55,591 bases of DNA from positions 1 to 55,591 of IMG/VR virus record IMGVR_UViG_3300025168_000106; one strand, given 5' to 3'. Below the pieces are notes generated by a model, which was not told the DNA's origin, ran no database searches, and saw nothing but the letters and a program-made list of their open reading frames with translations. Positions 11,436 through 53,064 of this stretch are shown one piece after another (the first letter of the stretch is position 1; each line of letters begins with the position of its first letter). This stretch comes from a virus. Both the position numbers and the translations under genes were made by a program.

Positions 11436-11459
11436 GGACGAGGGTTCAAACCCTCGTCC
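11436..11459 (+). terminator. terminator after the capsid gene, built on the GAGGGTT palindrome family
   Basis: GGACGAGGG and CCCTCGTCC form a 9-bp stem around TTCAAA. A run of T residues (TTTTATTTTTTTT) follows, so this is a good intrinsic terminator on the + strand. It is one of twelve copies of the dispersed palindrome and the only one with a clear + strand T-tract. Confidence 0.85.
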
Positions 11460-11490
11460 TTTTATTTTTTTTAATTTTAATCTAATCTTT

Positions 11491-44437: not shown

Positions 44438-45514
44438 TTATATATTAAAATGATTACTTGAAACTTCTTCTGCTGTGTACTCGCTTCCACATCCTATGCA
44501 CTGAAATGTATCCCCTAGAAACTCCTCCTTGATTAAGTCGTTGTAACACTCAATGCAATAAGGCTTTTCATCCACATCATGTCCCTCATCAGCGTATAGG
44601 TCATCCCATAAGGGCGTTTGGTTGCACTCTGCCTCGTAAGGTACAAAGGAGAGTTTCTTCGCAATGGGTTTAGGAGCATACGTCTTGTGGTATTCCTGAC
44701 TGTCTAATGGTTGTGAGTCGTTGAAGTATATCCAACACGTTAGCACTCTCCCATCGTCCATCTTAATAGGCACCTCTCTTCGTTGATACCATTGAGGGTG
44801 ACCCTCCAACCTGTCAAGGTCGTCAAAGGTCGCGTCATTGACCTTAAATACATCAACCTCTACATTGTGTCCTACTCCCTCAGAAGATAGAAGGAAAGGT
44901 AACCCGCTTATAATTAAAGGGTATTTAGTCTGTGTCTCTCCACTGCCTAAAAATCGCGCTGACCTTAAGTAGTTATTGTAGTTGTTATAACCCTTCTTTA
45001 ACGTGCCGTAAACAGCGACTACATTCTCTTGTAAAACGTTTGACTTAGAATACCATATACCGTCTCTCTTGGTATAGGCATCTCGGTTATAAATCTGAAA
45101 CGACTTGTCTTTCGTATTGATAGAGACGAATCTTGAATCGTGCTTCTCTAACTCTGCCTTCCATTGGGCGCGAGGTATATCCCCTAGACTTTCCGCTAAG
45201 ACTTTGCTGTCGCACTTCTCCTTCGTTCCCAATCCCTTAATCGTTCCGTTCTGCATAAGTAACTCATGCTCTAACTCACCGCATACAAAAGGGTGTGTGT
45301 TGGATAACCCAACCTTCCCAACCGTAGCATATCTAAAGTGAGCAATAAATGGTCGCTCGGTTAATAACGACTCGTACTCTGATGACTTGTGATAGGTGGT
45401 CTCGAATGTATCGAGGAAAGTAATCCCAAGTCCATGAGGATTAATTCGTGCCGAATTTTCTAACGTCTCTTTCGAAATTATGTTAGACTTTTGTTTGATA
45501 ATAATTACACACAT
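44438..45514 (-). CDS. class II glutamine amidotransferase fused to gamma-glutamylcyclotransferase (GGCT/AIG2-like), with C-terminal zinc ribbon
   Basis: A 358-residue fusion. Residues 2-155 are an Ntn-type class II glutamine amidotransferase: C2 as nucleophile after Met removal, INPHG, HFRYAT (59-64), NTHPF (72-76) and QNGT (88-91). Residues about 165-275 are a GGCT/AIG2-like domain: VYGTLKKG (168-175) and LDRLEGHPQWYQR with E237 as the expected catalytic Glu. A zinc ribbon ends the protein (C320, C323, C339, C342). Amidotransferase and GGCT genes are known neighbours of amidoligases, and an amidoligase is encoded ~3 kb upstream in this block. Making or removing amide-linked groups is inferred; the substrate is unknown. 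Confidence 0.82.
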   Translation of the reverse strand: MCVIIIKQKSNIISKETLENSARINPHGLGITFLDTFETTYHKSSEYESLLTERPFIAHFRYATVGKVGLSNTHPFVCGELEHELLMQNGTIKGLGTKEKCDSKVLAESLGDIPRAQWKAELEKHDSRFVSINTKDKSFQIYNRDAYTKRDGIWYSKSNVLQENVVAVYGTLKKGYNNYNNYLRSARFLGSGETQTKYPLIISGLPFLLSSEGVGHNVEVDVFKVNDATFDDLDRLEGHPQWYQRREVPIKMDDGRVLTCWIYFNDSQPLDSQEYHKTYAPKPIAKKLSFVPYEAECNQTPLWDDLYADEGHDVDEKPYCIECYNDLIKEEFLGDTFQCIGCGSEYTAEEVSSNHFNI

Positions 45515-45564: not shown

Positions 45565-45600
45565 GTACAAATATAGTGTATATATTGTGCAATTCCTAAT
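45565..45600 (-). promoter_or_regulatory. - strand early promoter
   Basis: On the - strand: ATTAGGAATTGCAC, 11 bases, TATATTTG. The -7 element fits the Bacteroidetes consensus, and the TTRCAC block with the same spacing recurs at two other early promoters. It drives the amidotransferase fusion gene and those following. Confidence 0.7.
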
Positions 45601-45941: not shown

Positions 45942-46331
45942 TTAATAACTTAATCGAGATACAATTATCTCATATTCATAATTACCCTTACTCACTATAG
46001 ATATTTCATAATCGGAAGTATAGGTTTGATTACCAAGAATAAACTGACTCCCATTGTTACTTATTGATGCACCATCTTCAAGCGCACCACTAAGCCTTTT
46101 TAGATACATTCTATCTCCGAAAGTTTTAAAGTCTATCTTAATGGCAAAGTACCTATCGTATAACTCTTTTGAGCATCTCTCTGCTTCGCTCTTGAACCCC
46201 AATGCTAATGTGTCTTCTCTATAGTACTCTTCGTTTTCTGAGAAGTCGCAGTCTATCTCAAAGAATGGTATAAACATTCTTTCGTGGCATCCTTTGATGC
46301 TGATACGGTGTACGTGCAAGTTATTGCTCAT
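45942..46331 (-). CDS. unknown alpha/beta protein
   Basis: A 129-residue protein with alternating strands and helices, two cysteines and no recognised catalytic pattern. Its start overlaps the upstream gene by 11 bases. Confidence 0.55.
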   Translation of the reverse strand: MSNNLHVHRISIKGCHERMFIPFFEIDCDFSENEEYYREDTLALGFKSEAERCSKELYDRYFAIKIDFKTFGDRMYLKRLSGALEDGASISNNGSQFILGNQTYTSDYEISIVSKGNYEYEIIVSRLSY

Positions 46332-46752
46332 CGAGATATATATTTGCTATTGTGTCTGAAATTTCATTGTTGATATACTCCATCATAGAGTCGTTATCTT
46401 TGAACGTAGCTAGGAGGATGCTCAAGGCTTGTTCCTCAGTTAGCTTGATTTCTAAGTGTTCTGCGTTACGCATTACATCCTCAGTACTCCATTTTAGTTC
46501 GCTTCCGGTGTAATAGGTAAGAGGGTTAAAACGAGGGTTCAATTGAACCCTCGTTAAACGAGGGTTCAAACCCTCGTTTTCTATCTTCCACTCCTCATGC
46601 TTTGCAGTGAAGTAAAGTATAGATTCTTTACATCTCTGTTCGCTGTATTTTGGTCGTTCAATAGAGTCTATGTCAAATTGTGATTTGCGTAGTTGCTCGT
46701 TCCAAAAAATTAACTTGTCGGCATAGCCGTTTTTGTAGGATTGTGTGCCCAT
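46321..46752 (-). CDS. unknown protein with two palindromes embedded in its coding sequence
   Basis: A 143-residue protein. The N-terminal ~55 residues and C-terminal ~70 residues are helical and ordinary. Between them a palindromic insertion of about 50 bases encodes GLNPRLTRVQLNPRFNP, where LNPR is repeated because the DNA is repeated. The frame is kept, so the inserted DNA is tolerated as an extra loop. The function is unknown. It overlaps the short membrane gene upstream (TAATG). Confidence 0.6.
   Translation of the reverse strand: MGTQSYKNGYADKLIFWNEQLRKSQFDIDSIERPKYSEQRCKESILYFTAKHEEWKIENEGLNPRLTRVQLNPRFNPLTYYTGSELKWSTEDVMRNAEHLEIKLTEEQALSILLATFKDNDSMMEYINNEISDTIANIYLDEQ
46530..46555. 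repeat. dispersed palindrome, perfect 26-base variant (intragenic)
   Basis: AACGAGGGTTCAA followed by its exact reverse complement: a perfect 26-base palindrome with AATT at the centre, four bases longer at the centre than the other copies. It is fully inside a coding sequence. Confidence 0.9.
46556..46579. repeat. dispersed palindrome copy (intragenic, tandem with the previous one)
   Basis: AAACGAGGG and CCCTCGTTT flank TTCAAA, directly abutting the preceding perfect palindrome. Tandem placement suggests duplication or serial insertion. Confidence 0.9.
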
Positions 46753-47130: not shown

Positions 47131-47166
47131 GTGTAAATATAGGGTAATTATTGTGTAATTCCTAAT
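47131..47166 (-). promoter_or_regulatory. - strand early promoter
   Basis: On the - strand: ATTAGGAATTACAC, 11 bases, TATATTTA. It is nearly the same as the promoter near 45565 over its upstream half. It starts the transcript beginning with the gene at 47107. Confidence 0.7.
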
Positions 47167-47181
47167 GTATTGCAATAAAAC

Positions 47182-47212
47182 TTATAACTCGCTGTCAGTG
47201 AGTGAGTTATAA
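47182..47212 (-). terminator. hairpin downstream of the ribozyme operon, likely terminator
   Basis: TTATAACTC and GAGTTATAA form a 9-bp stem with a 13-base loop. Read on the - strand it is followed by GTTTTATT. Together with the palindrome just before it, it forms a double hairpin between the ribozyme-punctuated operon and the next early promoter. Confidence 0.6.
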
Positions 47213-47213
47213 A

Positions 47214-47239
47214 GGAGTGAGGGTTTGAACCCTCACTCC
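47214..47239. repeat. dispersed palindrome, extended copy at an operon end
   Basis: GGAGTGAGGGTT and AACCCTCACTCC pair over 12 bp around TG. It lies 12 bases past the stop of the last gene of the ribozyme operon. No hammerhead core follows it, unlike the four copies upstream in that operon. Confidence 0.9.
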
Positions 47240-47251
47240 CCACTTTTTCTC

Positions 47252-47656
47252 TTAGTTGTTTAATTCGTTAAGAGCTTTATGTAGTCGCAGTCTATCCGCT
47301 TCGTCTTGGTCAGAATCAAAAAACTCACCATTTAAGTCTATCCAATTCCCATCCCACGCCACACCATTCAAGTACCATTGAAAGTTTCGCTGCACAATGT
47401 TCACGCCCTCAATTCCGTTTAATCTTTCTTTGGTGGTGGTGGTTTGCCATCCGCAAGTTGTGATAGATATAGTTCTGTTTAACCCATGAGAGCGCGATGC
47501 GATTACGTTATCATGTAATAGCAATTCTGTTGATACTGAGCGTCTAGGTTCTCCGCTGTTGCTTCTGTGTATTAATATTCTTACTCGCATGTTTTGTCTC
47601 TTGAAAGGTCTGTCGTTCATAAAGGCATTGATTGAATCTCTTGTTATCTTTCTCAT
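47252..47656 (-). CDS. conserved phage protein of unknown function
   Basis: A 134-residue protein beginning with KITRDSINAFMN. Its middle part (NRTISITTCGW, then TTKERLNGI) resembles a family found in many unrelated phages that has no established role. It is the last gene of the ribozyme-punctuated operon and follows the preceding gene without a ribozyme between them. Confidence 0.6.
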   Translation of the reverse strand: MRKITRDSINAFMNDRPFKRQNMRVRILIHRSNSGEPRRSVSTELLLHDNVIASRSHGLNRTISITTCGWQTTTTKERLNGIEGVNIVQRNFQWYLNGVAWDGNWIDLNGEFFDSDQDEADRLRLHKALNELNN

Positions 47657-47657
47657 T

Positions 47658-47885
47658 TTAGTTTCGGATTATATTATAGTTATACTGTGAAGCGTTGAAA
47701 AAACTGTCATCTTTTAACAGTCCTTCGCGTCTCTCAAATTCCTTGTAGTCATCGACATACAAACTTTCGCTTAATTCATGTCGTGTACTCTCAGGCGTTT
47801 CGAATCTGTATTCCGACAGCGTAGAAGAAAATAATATCTTTCTTTCTTTCTGTTCTTTTAACAGGGGTAAATAAATCTTTGTCAT
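47658..47885 (-). CDS. small unknown protein downstream of ribozyme 1
   Basis: A 75-residue charged protein. A longer frame starts at a GTG in the structured leader. Alignment of that leader with the one before the gene at 49626 shows both are untranslated and places this start at the ATG of MTKIYLP. No motif is recognised. Confidence 0.6.
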   Translation of the reverse strand: MTKIYLPLLKEQKERKILFSSTLSEYRFETPESTRHELSESLYVDDYKEFERREGLLKDDSFFNASQYNYNIIRN

Positions 47886-47892
47886 AACATTT

Positions 47893-47908
47893 TGATGGTG
47901 GGTCATCA
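47893..47908 (-). promoter_or_regulatory. leader hairpin between ribozyme 1 and its gene
   Basis: TGATG and CATCA pair 5 bp. The same place in the leader after ribozyme 4 has TAATGG/CCATTA. The base change is matched on both arms, and the sequence before it (CCAATCAATTAACGGGT on the - strand) is identical. It lies 8 bases before the start codon. Confidence 0.6.
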
Positions 47909-47923
47909 CCCGTTAATTGATTG

Positions 47924-47977
47924 GCTGTTTCGACTGTTTTCAGTCATCGTCAGGGGTGATACACATCACCCGACAGC
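47924..47977 (-). ncRNA. hammerhead ribozyme (type III), copy 1, slightly irregular
   Basis: On the - strand: GCTGTC (stem III strand and cleavage triplet GUC), GGGTGAT-GTGT-ATCACCC (stem I, 7 bp), core CTGACGA, stem II GACTG-AAAA-CAGTC, then GAA and ACAGC closing stem III. Cleavage is expected 3' of the C at 47972. Position 7 is C, which hammerheads tolerate. One extra U at 47946 sits between A9 and stem II, so activity may be reduced. It is flanked upstream by a palindrome and downstream by a conserved leader. Confidence 0.8.
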
Positions 47978-47999
47978 AGTGAGGGTTCAAACCCTCACT
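47978..47999. repeat. dispersed palindrome attached to ribozyme 1
   Basis: AGTGAGGGTT and AACCCTCACT pair around CA. It directly abuts the ribozyme on its 5' side and lies 8 bases past the stop of the upstream gene. Confidence 0.9.
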
Positions 48000-48007
48000 T
48001 CTAGCTG

Positions 48008-48214
48008 TTATCCTTCCCATCCGTTTATTTTGCCCTCTTCATTGTCTAGGGTATTCCATCCGGTAGGGCTCTTCCCGAAAAACCGAACAGAGTCAGCCTC
48101 GTAATCATCTCGCACTTTTTCTAACTCCTTCCGGACAGAGGTTAACTCCGTGCGTAACTCCTCAATTTTTTTGAGCATCAGTAACTCATCTTTACTCCAA
48201 TCTTTAATAATCAT
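48008..48214 (-). CDS. small coiled-coil protein between ribozymes 2 and 1
   Basis: A 68-residue protein with a heptad-like charged helix (about residues 8-45). A TTG nine bases upstream would extend it by three residues, but the ATG is preferred. Predicted ribozyme cuts on either side would leave it on a ~308-nt RNA of its own. The function is unknown. Confidence 0.6.
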   Translation of the reverse strand: MIIKDWSKDELLMLKKIEELRTELTSVRKELEKVRDDYEADSVRFFGKSPTGWNTLDNEEGKINGWEG

Positions 48215-48235
48215 AACACACAATTTTGTTGGTTT

Positions 48236-48285
48236 CTGTTTCGTCCTTTAGGACTCATCAGGAGCAGTACACACCGCCCGACAGC
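48236..48285 (-). ncRNA. hammerhead ribozyme (type III), copy 2
   Basis: On the - strand: GCTGTC, then stem I GGGCGG-TGTGTA-CTGCTC (6 bp with two G-U), core CTGATGA, stem II GTCC-TAAA-GGAC, GAA, and ACAG pairing with CTGT to give a 4-bp stem III. All invariant core positions are present. Cleavage is expected 3' of the C at 48280. It lies between the amidoligase gene and a small coiled-coil gene. Confidence 0.92.
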
Positions 48286-48288
48286 GGA

Positions 48289-48308
48289 GTGAGGGTTTGA
48301 ACCCTCAC
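48289..48308. repeat. dispersed palindrome attached to ribozyme 2
   Basis: GTGAGGG and CCCTCAC pair around TTTGAA, three bases from the ribozyme and 12 bases past the amidoligase stop. Confidence 0.9.
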
Positions 48309-48320
48309 CCCATCACCCCC

Positions 48321-49256
48321 TCACCATTGTGAGGATAACTGTAGCTCTCTCGCACATCTCGTGTAAAGGTCTGTATTACGTCCATGCCTATCAACGAAGG
48401 GTAACACCTCCGCGTTAATTTTGCCGGTCTTAATGAACTTGCAAAACGCCTTCGCTAACTGCATAACCTTGTTAGCCTTATCAACATCGCCATCGTACAT
48501 GGCTAACACAATCGGGGCATATCTCCTTTGCGCTTGTGAAAGCGTGTGACCTTTCATTGCGCTGTCTACTAGGATGTACATGAGCTCGTAACGTCGCTTC
48601 AACGTGTTCACGTTTTGGATGCGTGAAGGGATACGAAACTCAACCGTGTCACCTTTGACATTAGCTACACTGCTACGGCCTGAGCCGTTGTACACGTTCT
48701 CGTGGCCACGTGGTAACATGGTCATATTTTCATTGCAATAGTGATGGTTTAGACGTTTACGATATAACGCAAGTATAATGCCCGATATCGGTCGCATTTT
48801 TTCAAGTAACTCAGCACCGCTGACACCCTCAGCCGCAACGGTCATATGACCTCCGCAACGGTAATCCGTTGGACTCCATTGGTCATCTATAACTCTCTCA
48901 GCCTCATGAAACATGTTGTACACCTTAGTTCGCCACACACACGCCCCGATAAGCGGTAAGATATTCGTGACGGCCTCATAACCGCAGCTGCTATCAGTTT
49001 CGAACCCACAGAACAAAGGATACGGACGAACTGAACCGCGACCGAGTCGGGTTTTTTCAATCTCAAAACCGATTGTAAATTTTGCCCTCACTTCTAAGGC
49101 TGAACTCATGCGCATCGCATCCCGGTCCATTGGTTTCACGTTGGCTATGTCACCGAGTGACGCCCCTCCGTTGTAGTTTCTAAAGCTAGGCTTTCTGTGA
49201 TAGCTAGACATTTGACCGCGATTTCGGTTGCTGTCATTTTCAAATTTTACACCCAT
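48321..49256 (-). CDS. amidoligase (COOH-NH2 ligase superfamily)
   Basis: A 311-residue protein. After a basic, low-complexity N-terminus (1-55) it has the amidoligase series: TIGFEIEK with E65/E67, FETDSSCGYEAVT (85-97), CGGHMTV (134-140) and VEFRIP (205-210). These correspond to the metal/ATP-binding residues of the glutamine-synthetase-like fold. Such enzymes form amide or peptide-like bonds using ATP. They often pair with class II amidotransferases and GGCT proteins, and a fusion of exactly those two is encoded at 44438-45514. It sits alone between two predicted ribozyme cuts. The substrate is unknown. Confidence 0.82.
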   Translation of the reverse strand: MGVKFENDSNRNRGQMSSYHRKPSFRNYNGGASLGDIANVKPMDRDAMRMSSALEVRAKFTIGFEIEKTRLGRGSVRPYPLFCGFETDSSCGYEAVTNILPLIGACVWRTKVYNMFHEAERVIDDQWSPTDYRCGGHMTVAAEGVSGAELLEKMRPISGIILALYRKRLNHHYCNENMTMLPRGHENVYNGSGRSSVANVKGDTVEFRIPSRIQNVNTLKRRYELMYILVDSAMKGHTLSQAQRRYAPIVLAMYDGDVDKANKVMQLAKAFCKFIKTGKINAEVLPFVDRHGRNTDLYTRCARELQLSSQW

Positions 49257-49280
49257 AATAAAAGTAAATTAAATTAAATT

Positions 49281-49331
49281 GCTGTTTCGTTCTTTTGAAC
49301 TCATCAGGAGTGACAAACATCACCCGACAGC
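49281..49331 (-). ncRNA. hammerhead ribozyme (type III), copy 3
   Basis: On the - strand: GCTGTC, stem I GGGTGA-TGTTTG-TCACTC (6 bp), core CTGATGA, stem II GTTC-AAAA-GAAC, GAA, ACAGC. Stem III is 5 bp and extends by one T-A pair. Stem II differs from copies 2 and 4 by paired changes (GTCC/GGAC to GTTC/GAAC). Cleavage is expected 3' of the C at 49326. A plain A/T leader leads to the amidoligase start. Confidence 0.93.
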
Positions 49332-49332
49332 A

Positions 49333-49352
49333 GTGAGGGTTTGAACCCTCAC
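49333..49352. repeat. dispersed palindrome attached to ribozyme 3
   Basis: GTGAGGG and CCCTCAC pair around TTTGAA, directly 5' of the ribozyme on the - strand and four bases from the stop of the upstream gene. Confidence 0.9.
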
Positions 49353-49356
49353 CCCG

Positions 49357-49626
49357 TTAAAGGTTAATCGTTCTAACTGTCTTAATTGTTTGTACTGTCT
49401 TATAGTCTAAAATAGTATCACAATATTCAGTCACCATTATCACCGCTAAATCTTCGAATTTGATTAATAACGTGTCATATGAGTCTATAATGACATGCTT
49501 TAAACCTATTTCCTTAACTGTATGCAGGTCGCATAATTCGGCATCTTCTGAAATTACAATCTCTTGCCCTTCGCATAGGTTTTGATTAAGACTAACTAAA
49601 ATAGCTCTTGTGTTAGAGTAATTCAT
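49357..49626 (-). CDS. small protein between ribozymes 4 and 3
   Basis: An 89-residue protein rich in Ile, Val, Leu and Thr, with a repeated TVQTIKTVRTI-like end and a small-beta-barrel character. Predicted cuts would release it on a ~384-nt RNA. Its leader shares a hairpin with the gene after ribozyme 1. The function is unknown. Confidence 0.6.
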   Translation of the reverse strand: MNYSNTRAILVSLNQNLCEGQEIVISEDAELCDLHTVKEIGLKHVIIDSYDTLLIKFEDLAVIMVTEYCDTILDYKTVQTIKTVRTINL

Positions 49627-49633
49627 GATATTT

Positions 49634-49649
49634 TAATGGTAGGCCATTA
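49634..49649 (-). promoter_or_regulatory. leader hairpin between ribozyme 4 and its gene
   Basis: TAATGG and CCATTA pair 6 bp with a 4-base loop, 8 bases before the start codon. It is the partner of the hairpin at 47893-47908, with matched substitutions in both arms. Confidence 0.6.
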
Positions 49650-49664
49650 CCCGTTAATTGATTG

Positions 49665-49715
49665 GCTGTTTCGTCCTCATGGACTCATCAGGAACGGAAA
49701 ACACCGTCCGACAGC
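49665..49715 (-). ncRNA. hammerhead ribozyme (type III), copy 4
   Basis: On the - strand: GCTGTC, stem I GGACGG-TGTTTT-CCGTTC (6 bp, one G-U), core CTGATGA, stem II GTCC-ATGA-GGAC, GAA, ACAGC (5-bp stem III). Every conserved hammerhead position is present. Cleavage is expected 3' of the C at 49710. It is the first ribozyme to be transcribed in the operon. Confidence 0.94.
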
Positions 49716-49737
49716 AGTGAGGGTTTGAACCCTCACT
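49716..49737. repeat. dispersed palindrome attached to ribozyme 4
   Basis: AGTGAGGGTT and AACCCTCACT pair around TG. It abuts the ribozyme and lies 9 bases past the stop of the operon's first gene. Confidence 0.9.
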
Positions 49738-49746
49738 TTATAGCTG

Positions 49747-50415
49747 TTATGCTGCGACCTCCATAGGAGTACTAAGCATTTGCATAAAGGCCGCAAGGGA
49801 CTCCGATATGGCTTCGTCGCTGTTAGTAGTCGTGACGGCTCCATGTTCGTCTATGTTCACCACGACATTGCCGTGAATAGGATGTTTAAAACGAAACTGT
49901 GCCATGTTCGTGCTATTCGTTGGCTCCGCTGTGGCTTCAACCTCAGCACCCTCCACAACGTCCTCAATAGTTTCGCCCGTTTCGGTGGCTTGGTCTAATA
50001 AAGCGCGACTCCATTTGTCAAAGTGCTGAACGCTTCGCGGGGCTTTCTGTCCTGCTGTTGCTAGTCGTGTCTGTTCGCGCTTGTATTTGGTTATGAGTTC
50101 GGGGTGCGCATCGTTTCGGTCAGCTATTCTTACAAGCAAATTAGCTTGTGAACGGTCTGAAAATCTTAACGCTTTTTCCACAAATTCGCTTTTGTTCCAT
50201 GATAGACCGGACTCCGCTAGCTGCCTCTGTCCATCCTTAGATGTAAAATGAATTAGGGCGGCTCTCACTTGTGGGGCTTGGGCTAATGATTTTTCGAACT
50301 GCTTCTTTTTCAAATTTCCTTCAGCATCTTGTAACGTGTGTAACTGTTGTAAACTCCCTCCTTCATAGGTAAAGCCGTTAACAAACTGTGTTTCGATTGG
50401 TAATAAATTAGGCAT
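49747..50415 (-). CDS. first gene of the ribozyme-punctuated operon, unknown function
   Basis: A 222-residue protein with a helical N-terminal two thirds and an acidic, Ala/Thr/Glu-rich linker (about 145-165). A small C-terminal beta part (QFRFKHPIHGNVVVNIDEHG) and a helix follow. Codons are more GC-rich than in most of the window, suggesting a different origin or strong selection. As the gene nearest the early promoter it may be expressed first and most. No family is recognised. Confidence 0.6.
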   Translation of the reverse strand: MPNLLPIETQFVNGFTYEGGSLQQLHTLQDAEGNLKKKQFEKSLAQAPQVRAALIHFTSKDGQRQLAESGLSWNKSEFVEKALRFSDRSQANLLVRIADRNDAHPELITKYKREQTRLATAGQKAPRSVQHFDKWSRALLDQATETGETIEDVVEGAEVEATAEPTNSTNMAQFRFKHPIHGNVVVNIDEHGAVTTTNSDEAISESLAAFMQMLSTPMEVAA

Positions 50416-50471: not shown

Positions 50472-50505
50472 GTGTAAATATAGTACAATTTTAGTGTAAT
50501 TCAAC
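50472..50505 (-). promoter_or_regulatory. - strand early promoter of the ribozyme operon
   Basis: On the - strand: GAATTACAC, 11 bases, TATATTTA. It has the same TTRCAC-N11-TATATTTR layout as the promoters near 45565 and 47131. The -7 element lies about 60 bases upstream of the first gene of the operon. Confidence 0.65.
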
Positions 50506-51429: not shown

Positions 51430-53064
51430 ATGTTTAAAGACAATTCGGGATACTCTCCCAAAGACTTACAGTTTGACGACGAGGGTCGTTTACGATTAAT
51501 ATCGGGCGTCACTAAGATGTCTAAAGCTGTAAAGAGCACGTTAGGTCCAAGCGGTCAAACGGTACTCATTGAATCTCCCAACCACACGCACGGCATTACG
51601 GTCACCAAGGATGGTGTTACTGTAGCTAAGGCTGTTGACCTAATTGACCCGGTAGAGAACCTAGCTGTTAGGATGATGAAAGAGGCATCGGACAGGACTG
51701 CGTCTGAGGCGGGCGATGGGACGACTACTGCTATTGTCCTTACGGAGGCTTTGGTGTGTTCTTTTTACGACAATATAGATAGACATGGTTCAGCAAACAC
51801 AACTGAGGCTTTGCGTCATCTTAGCAAATACACTCAAGATATCATCAAGCATCTAGAGGGTATTAGTGAGCCTTTAACTGACAAGCGTCTTCTTGACGTA
51901 GCTACTATCTCAAGTAATAATGACGCAGCGGTGGGTGAGATAATTGCCAAAGTATATAAAGCTGTTGGTAAGGATGGGATTGTTACGGTTGAGAACAGTC
52001 AATCTAGCGAGACCACTTTCGAGACCACTCACGGTATCAAGATAGACAAGGGATATACAGCTCCTTTGTTCATTAACGACCACTCTCGTGACGAGTGTAT
52101 TTTAGACGACTGCAACATCATGGTCTCTGACGCTGAGGTGAGCAGTGTACTACAGATAGAGAAAATTTTAAACCACATTATCCCCACGGGGAAAAAGCTA
52201 CTTATCATAGCTCCTGTCTCTCAACAAGTTACGAATACTTTAGCTGCTAACGTTATGAAAAACGGGTTAAAGGTTTGCATTATCTCTCCTCCTAACTTCG
52301 GGTATAAGCAGCACGAGTTGATGCAAGACATTGCGGCAGCTGTAGGGGCGACGTATTTCAGTGAGAAGACGGGTGACGATTTAAGTCTTATGGAGCCTAC
52401 TGACTTGGGGATTGTTTCTAAGGCTGTTATTGGAAGAGAGTCTACTATCCTTCTTCAATCTTCTGACAATGCTAGTGAAGAGTTATCTAAGCGTATCTCT
52501 CAGCTTCGTGTAGCTGTTAAGAAAGAAAAGAAAAAAGTTGAGAAGGAATTTATCCGTTCTCGTATAGCTACCCTTACGGGTGGTATAGGTGTCATCCATG
52601 TAGGTGGACAAACTGACCTAGAGCAGAAAGAGTTATTTGACCGTGTTGACGATGCGGTGTGTGCTGTACGTTCTGCTTTAGAGGAGGGTATCCTTCCGGG
52701 AGCAGGTATGGCTTTATACAATTCTATACAAGCTTGCTTAAGTAAGGAGTCTGATATTGACCCTAAAGAGATGGCAAGACAAGTGCTTTCTCAATCTCTT
52801 GTAGCTCCTATTGAGCAGATTCTTATTAATGCAGGTACTTCTTTTGATGATGTGTACTATAGAGATTGGCACGCAGGTGATAAGGCGCATCCTAAAGAAG
52901 GTTATGACGTAAAGAATAGTAAGTATGGCCACCTGATAGATATGGGTGTTATAGACCCTCTAAAGGTTACCAAGGTAGCTTTGCAGAACGCTGTCTCGGT
53001 AGCTACAACTATCTTGAGTACTAATGCCATTATTACTATGGCTCGTTCTTTAGAGAAAGAATGA
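51430..53064 (+). CDS. groEL: phage-encoded chaperonin GroEL (Cpn60)
   Basis: A 544-residue Cpn60, close to the ~548 of the E. coli protein. Key ATPase segments are present: LGPSG (38-42), TKDGVTVAK (59-67), GDGTTTA (95-101, with D96 at the D87 position), and DRVDDA with D408 at the position of catalytic D398. The C-terminus lacks the GGM-rich tail of bacterial GroEL, and the apical domain is diverged. It would fold phage proteins in an ATP-driven ring. Some large phages carry GroEL homologues, so the function is plausible. It overlaps a zinc-ribbon gene by four bases and is followed by groES, forming a compact chaperonin operon. Confidence 0.95.
   Translation: MFKDNSGYSPKDLQFDDEGRLRLISGVTKMSKAVKSTLGPSGQTVLIESPNHTHGITVTKDGVTVAKAVDLIDPVENLAVRMMKEASDRTASEAGDGTTTAIVLTEALVCSFYDNIDRHGSANTTEALRHLSKYTQDIIKHLEGISEPLTDKRLLDVATISSNNDAAVGEIIAKVYKAVGKDGIVTVENSQSSETTFETTHGIKIDKGYTAPLFINDHSRDECILDDCNIMVSDAEVSSVLQIEKILNHIIPTGKKLLIIAPVSQQVTNTLAANVMKNGLKVCIISPPNFGYKQHELMQDIAAAVGATYFSEKTGDDLSLMEPTDLGIVSKAVIGRESTILLQSSDNASEELSKRISQLRVAVKKEKKKVEKEFIRSRIATLTGGIGVIHVGGQTDLEQKELFDRVDDAVCAVRSALEEGILPGAGMALYNSIQACLSKESDIDPKEMARQVLSQSLVAPIEQILINAGTSFDDVYYRDWHAGDKAHPKEGYDVKNSKYGHLIDMGVIDPLKVTKVALQNAVSVATTILSTNAIITMARSLEKE

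Follow-up and report, generated by a model that had tools for sequence, protein, structure and literature searches.

Why would a phage place self-cleaving ribozymes at one gene junction after another within a single operon? This question is raised by a 55,591-nt (55.6 kb) virus contig, IMG/VR record IMGVR_UViG_3300025168_000106 (hereafter the window; coordinates are window positions), whose minus strand presents an operon of six genes encoding, in order, proteins of 222, 89, 311, 68, 75, and 134 amino acids (aa). Hammerhead ribozymes (HHRs) were found at the first four of the five junctions. The initial annotation spoke of a ribozyme at each junction, which holds for these four consecutive junctions but not for the junction of the 75-aa and 134-aa genes. 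We propose that each ribozyme forms, together with a hairpin located directly upstream, what is probably a composite element of mRNA punctuation: a terminator-type hairpin in which the U-tract has been replaced by a type III HHR. We favor this reading because the hairpin tracks the ends of genes, because it shows a strong strand bias, and because the same hairpin is used as a terminator when followed by a run of T.

The four HHRs are located on the minus strand at positions 49665–49715 (copy 1), 49280–49332 (copy 2), 48235–48285 (copy 3), and 47924–47977 (copy 4), with predicted cleavage at 49710/49709, 49326/49325, 48280/48279, and 47972/47971, respectively. The NUH triplet adjoining stem I is GUC in all four copies. 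The full hammerhead core ascribed to every copy by the initial annotation is exact in copies 1–3, which present the type III core CUGANGA ... GAA with A15.1–U16.1; copy 4 possesses every core residue but carries one additional U, inserted between CUGACGA and stem II (GACUG/CAGUC). The three conserved helices are present with stem III open, and they are supported by covariation across 31 sequences. In copy 3, stem III consists of 4 bp with a G–A mismatch as the fifth pair. The core pattern CTGANGA-N(6-30)-CGAAAC was matched four times in the window relative to 0.15 expected matches, and none of the shuffled sequences reached four matches. A strict structural scan identified three HHRs in the window and none across 30 shuffled windows.

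Comparison to the type III model of Rfam (RF00008) gave a mixed outcome. Three copies were matched at 36–43 bits (E-values of 2e-7 to 2e-5 over 2.5 kb), which is below the gathering score of 48.5; copy 4 was not among the RF00008 matches, and Rfam yielded no match across the whole window at gathering score. When gathering thresholds were applied to ten related loci (L010, L057, L044, and others), only two of many clear type III HHRs were reported. Because the RF00008 threshold also misses most intact HHRs of related phages, we judged that the low scores reflect a limit of the model and its threshold and not an exclusion from the HHR class. Indeed, a covariance model trained on 31 phage HHRs, which included copies 1–3 and excluded copy 4, detected all four copies with 72.8, 67.4, 66.4, and 51.7 bits (E-values of 2e-17 to 1e-11). 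This confirms the four minus-strand HHRs annotated between 47924 and 49715, and the cleavage sites given above, which were already part of that annotation, are correct as sequence positions. The covariation between stems reported from the four copies was also borne out: across the 31 HHRs, 98.7% of the cells were paired (34–51% in slid controls) and 12 of the 15 pairs have changed on both sides. With regard to a possible tertiary contact between loops I and II, the sequence alignment presents an invariant U at column 13 (loop I) and an invariant A at column 39 (loop II). Based on covariation, conservation of position, and spacing, there is strong support for type III HHRs at consecutive junctions of co-directional genes. 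One could argue that these ribozymes are decayed or inactive remnants, in line with the sub-threshold Rfam scores, the additional U of copy 4, and the alternative fold that competes with the ribozyme of copies 1 and 4. This is extremely unlikely considering that covariation is near-complete and that the variants fall into a small number of recurrent types whose stems covary; moreover, the Rfam threshold misses nearly all the intact HHRs of related phages as well.

The additional U of copy 4 belongs to one of these recurrent types. A loose scan allowing any first pair of stem II yielded 104 distinct HHRs, and this pair was G–C in 69 of them, U·U in 16, an inserted U followed by G–C in 16 (a count inflated by a scan that targeted this variant), and A·A in 3; nothing else was found. 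The U insertion before stem II was observed in 22 distinct sequences, where stem II covaries and is mostly 5 bp long relative to the usual 4 bp. Downstream of hairpins, U·U cores were found in L010, L015, L056, L076, and L077, and A·A cores in L012, L096, and L100. The main text of Perreault 2011 describes U10.1–U11.1 as well as the insertions A6a, U13a, and 2a/2b (PMC3088659); in that text, we did not find a description of the U insertion before stem II or of the A·A core. The HHR of phage PaP3, one of the tested examples in the same text (PMC3088659), is of the U·U form.

Besides the U insertion of copy 4 and the competing fold of copies 1 and 4, the initial annotation had missed the hairpin upstream of the ribozymes. 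This hairpin, GTGAGGGTTYRAACCCTCAC, is a 20-nt palindrome that is found directly 5' of all four HHRs of the window and also at several other intergenic sites. The four hairpins are located on the minus strand at 49716–49737 (AGTGAGGGTTCAAACCCTCACT), 49333–49352, 48286–48311 (GGGGTGAGGGTTCAAACCCTCACTCC), and 47978–47999, the last one with the loop TTTGAA, which is the reverse of the usual TTCAAA. Overall, the core palindrome is present in 11 copies in the window and in 8 copies in its nearest relative. On the plus strand at 11436–11472, the palindrome has the features of an intrinsic terminator, since the G+C-rich hairpin GGACGAGGGTTCAAACCCTCGTCC is followed there by the T-tract TTTTATTTTTTTT. 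This combination is absent from the four HHR units, where GCUGUC and the ribozyme occupy the place of the T-tract after the hairpin. Another terminator-like hairpin built on the same palindrome and followed by TATAACT (47212–47241, minus strand) marks the probable end of the operon. An HHR follows 35 of the 54 long UUCAAA hairpins and a run of T follows 5 of them; several of the remaining 14 are terminators or HHR units that were misparsed by our script.

The orientation of the palindrome is informative as to how it acts. For intergenic palindromes between co-directional genes, UUCAAA was found on the transcribed strand in 47 cases versus 2, and no such bias was observed within open reading frames (ORFs; 17 versus 11). 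This strand bias suggests that the hairpin probably works as RNA and not as a symmetric DNA site, and the possibility of a DNA operator was discarded on this ground. We also rejected a tRNA-like element, considered for the resemblance of GGGTTCAAACCC to a T-arm: ARAGORN finds no tRNA, and the hairpin presents a 6-nt loop or a tetraloop instead of a 7-nt T-loop. The different stems and loops of the hairpins in other lineages further weaken this reading. The GAGGGTTCAAACCCTC palindrome is also located inside a coding region (46321–46752), at 46560–46575, which corresponds to 8563–8585 in the relative L094. The window possesses additional coding sequence relative to L094 at this palindrome, which hints that the palindrome itself can spread.

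The association between hairpin and ribozyme extends well beyond the window. A scan of viral contigs for the HHR core, in which the hairpin was not required, identified 86 stretches and, once near-identical sequences were removed, 79 HHRs. In 60 of these 79 non-redundant HHRs, a hairpin ended 9 nt or less from the cleavage site, compared to 168 of 2472 nearby control positions (6.8%), and the end of the hairpin was located 5–7 nt 5' of the cleavage site in 57 viral HHRs. Mean folding energy was −13.4 kcal/mol for the upstream 40 nt, about −5.9 kcal/mol for far controls, and −2.8 kcal/mol for the downstream leader. The ribozyme was found within 100 nt of a stop codon and 60 nt of an ATG for 59 of 78 HHRs, with medians of 41 nt from the stop codon to the cleavage site and 26 nt from the HHR to the ATG. 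The usual order of the unit is a stop codon, the hairpin, the HHR, a short unstructured leader, and the ATG. The sequence of the hairpin varies by lineage and presents either the UUCAAA loop on differing stems or UNCG and GNRA tetraloops. Many other records possess clusters of two to five HHRs on the same strand, the window presenting four of them in 1.8 kb. The hairpin–HHR unit thus recurs in dozens of other phages. Finally, a separate scan of genome contigs returned 25 matches, five of which passed our structural filter and three of which presented an adjoining hairpin.

The hairpin could chiefly aid the ribozyme, by stacking on a short stem III and by insulating the HHR from upstream sequences, in which case processing would occur but 3' protection would not be the point. 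Indeed, in 45 of 64 cases, the end of the hairpin coincides exactly with the first base of stem III, which is just 4–6 bp long in most copies. A hairpin with this role, however, would be expected at HHRs wherever they are located. Instead, a stop codon was found within 90 nt upstream for 75 of the 80 HHRs with a hairpin versus 20 of the 45 HHRs without one (Fisher p = 1.2e-9; odds ratio of 18.8), and the association held under a stricter ORF cutoff (p = 7e-6). HHRs in leader position usually have no hairpin, as observed in the cultured phages PaP3 and elemoF, and the same hairpin family occurs after genes that have no HHR. Among cultured relatives, the Flavobacterium elemo phages examined (host BAL314) possess an HHR of the leader type. 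We therefore consider it unlikely that the hairpin mainly serves the folding of the ribozyme.

If hairpin and ribozyme form a single punctuation element, RNA polymerase would pass each unit and transcribe the entire operon, and each ribozyme would cut 3' of GUC. The ribozyme structure, its coupling to the hairpin, the spacing, the operon context, and the conservation can all be read from the sequences; cleavage and the nature of the ends, cyclic phosphate included, would follow from known hammerhead chemistry. The upstream mRNA would retain a strong hairpin and a tail of ~6 nt with a 2',3'-cyclic phosphate, which is expected to be a poor substrate for 3' exonucleases, and the downstream mRNA would begin with a 5'-OH; stems I and II would come first, and a short leader without structure would connect them to the start codon. 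The operon mRNA would most likely be split into mainly single-gene RNAs. The window operon would yield five RNAs—four with a single gene and one with two genes—each ending in the same hairpin, which is also found at the probable end of the operon. Stabilization of the mRNAs and independent expression of the genes are putative outcomes of this processing. RNase II is reported to stall 5–7 nt short of a duplex and RNase R to require an overhang of at least 5 nt (PMC10240344). The ~6-nt tail falls within the stalling range of RNase II.

Several observations weigh against this model. The same ~6-nt tail lies right at the limit published for RNase R, such that protection may be partial. The 20 hairpin-less HHRs mentioned above still closely follow a gene. 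Our counts treat homologues as independent once near-identical copies are removed, and these sequences are not phylogenetically independent. All three HHR helices were recovered in the plain minimum free energy (MFE) fold of just 30 of 79 viral cassettes, although such folding disregards tertiary contacts. Copies 1 and 4 possess a UAACAGC sequence overlapping the stop codon, and its ACAGC can base-pair with the GCUGU of stem III; in the predicted MFE fold, this upstream pairing is preferred to stem III. A terminating ribosome might cover ACAGC and thereby free the ribozyme in these two copies. An upstream complement of stem III was rejected as a general switch, since it was found in 3 of 79 cases, which is the level of the controls, and it is particular to copies 1 and 4 of the window.

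It is also conceivable that pairs of HHRs excise and circularize the intervening RNA. The GCUGUC at the 3' end of a fragment would pair again with the ACAGC at its 5' end and be ligated, which would produce circular mRNAs or mobile circles resembling viroids or retrozymes. Stem III is common to the four HHRs of the window, and their fragment ends could thus refold; this is possible for 47 of 84 consecutive pairs of HHRs. In contrast, the other 37 pairs are unable to re-form 4 bp of stem III even though our scan favored one stem III, which led us to reject circular RNA as a general role. According to the main text of Perreault 2011, spliced or circular products were sought and none were found (PMC3088659). 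Overall, we consider circularization to be very unlikely.

We examined how the junctions are conserved across related phages. The stop codon of the 311-aa gene is followed by an HHR 27–41 nt downstream in L094, L095, L096, L097, and L100, whose proteins are 44–90% identical, and L101 presents the U·U variant at the same junction. In L094, genes 2 and 4 are absent: one HHR stands for HHR1–gene 2–HHR2 and another for HHR3–gene 4–HHR4. Both replacement HHRs are chimeric: the sequence upstream of each matches the flank of one window copy, and the sequence downstream of it matches that of the following copy. The replacement of HHR–gene–HHR by a single chimeric HHR suggests that HHR-bounded genes behave as modules. 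The units could therefore be mainly recombination modules, with hairpin–HHR repeats allowing gene gain and loss and with cleavage being secondary or regulatory. The precise absence of genes 2 and 4 in L094 agrees with this scenario, as do the dispersed and lineage-specific palindromes. The ribozyme itself, however, appears to be under selection: its stems covary, its core variants are restricted, and its position after the 311-aa gene is kept at 44–47% protein identity. This makes a primarily recombinational role rather improbable. Such a role is nevertheless compatible with mRNA processing, and both may hold.

The leaders between ribozymes and start codons present an additional element. It was found on the minus strand before the start codon of gene 2 (49638–49654, ACGGGTAATGGCCTACC) and of gene 5 (47897–47913, ACGGGTGATGACCCACC), the first copy differing from the second by a compensatory change from A–U to G–C. 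This ACGGGTRATGRCCYACCAT element is located between the HHR and the start codon in both window copies and in L020, L038/L094, and L065, with a compensatory change from GGTA/TACC to GGTG/CACC. Other lineages possess AACCGGAGGTTTGAAACCCTCC-like leaders at the same spot. The ACGGGTRATGRCCYACCAT element may be a hairpin for translational control.

The six genes of the operon, whose ORFs were called with simple rules, are all on the minus strand. Gene 1 (49747–50415, 222 aa) has no family match. Gene 2 (49357–49626, 89 aa) and gene 4 (48008–48214, 68 aa counted from ATG) are the two genes missing in L094, and gene 3 (48321–49256, 311 aa) is kept in related phages at 42–90% identity. Searches with single gene 3 sequences and with their alignment gave no match in Pfam, PHROG, or PDB; the product may resemble an amidoligase. 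Gene 5 (47658–47885, 75 aa) is followed by gene 6 (47252–47656, 134 aa), which matches PF23790 Kyano_Gp96 and phrog_554. An early operon is plausible because recombination and replication proteins are encoded farther downstream. Upstream of the operon lies a promoter-like direct repeat, ACTATATTTACAC, with a −7-type TATATTTR element (50472–50502, minus strand). Similar minus-strand copies of this repeat (TACACTATATTTRYAC region) are found at 47131–47161 and 45565–45595, and two of the three copies, including the one upstream of the operon, are conserved in position in L094. The motif ACTATATTTRYAC has four matches at one mismatch versus 0.59 expected. These repeats are suggestive of three transcription units under a −7 element of the Bacteroidota type.

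The large terminase of this flavobacterial-type phage shares 73% identity with that of the uncultured podovirus MW202828, 45% with those of Flavobacterium elemo phages, and 32–38% with those of Cellulophaga and Tenacibaculum phages. Based on these similarities, a host among Bacteroidota is likely. A DNA search of named phages returned a single weak match. Near the conserved 311-aa protein, a single protein (44438–45514, minus strand) possesses a GATase-like region together with a gamma-glutamyl cyclotransferase domain (PF06094). On the plus strand, 51430–53064 encodes a GroEL-type chaperonin (PF00118).

The hairpin–HHR unit resembles several known systems. The HHRs of the window share the core, the NUH site, and the open stem III topology of RF00008 but differ in loops and stem lengths. 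Like intrinsic terminators, the units present a G+C-rich palindrome after stop codons, but they carry an HHR where the U-tract would be. In phage T7, RNase III cuts the polycistronic early mRNA between genes and leaves structured 3' ends; here, the RNA itself would cut, with 5'-OH and cyclic phosphate ends and without a host enzyme. In synthetic insulators of the RiboJ type, an HHR placed in a bacterial 5' leader removes the upstream RNA, whereas the units of the window are natural, intergenic, and possess a hairpin 5' of the ribozyme.

The initial annotation implied that ribozymes at successive phage junctions were new, yet clustered phage HHRs had already been reported (Perreault 2011, PMC3088659). 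The main text of that study describes prophages in which several HHRs flank individual genes or short groups of genes and proposes processing into single-gene mRNAs; it also reports that native fragments of ~2 kb cleave in vitro and that a triple from Agrobacterium tumefaciens cleaves in Escherichia coli (PMC3088659). The window presents a cluster of this kind, since several HHRs on the same strand border single genes within one phage operon. In contrast, the main text does not mention a coupled upstream hairpin, kinship with terminators, turnover of HHR-bounded genes, or the U insertion before stem II (PMC3088659). We found no description of the hairpin–HHR unit in the literature, in a search covering few subscription papers or bioRxiv preprints. 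As far as searched, the hairpin–HHR composite is new, and so are its association with the ends of genes and its relatedness to terminators, along with the variant carrying a U insertion and the turnover of modules.

The role of hammerheads in prokaryotes and phages has been described as an open question (PMC6155905). The order of the unit, the restriction of the hairpin to HHRs that follow genes, and the hairpin shared with terminators lead to a specific claim: the ribozyme would replace termination in making the 3' ends of mRNAs. For phages at large, we give an even chance to a broader proposal. Many of them would use a fusion of terminator hairpin and HHR, built on a few fixed cores (with G–C, U·U, A·A, or an inserted U with G–C at the start of stem II), to provide each gene with a terminator-like 3' end without halting transcription, and this fusion would also bound swapped gene modules. 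Our results also point to a natural variant of the hammerhead core, with a U before stem II, and to an annotation gap, with the Rfam threshold missing most such ribozymes. If the proposed function is correct, RNA catalysis would perform routine mRNA processing in many phages, and the parts would be usable for synthetic operons.

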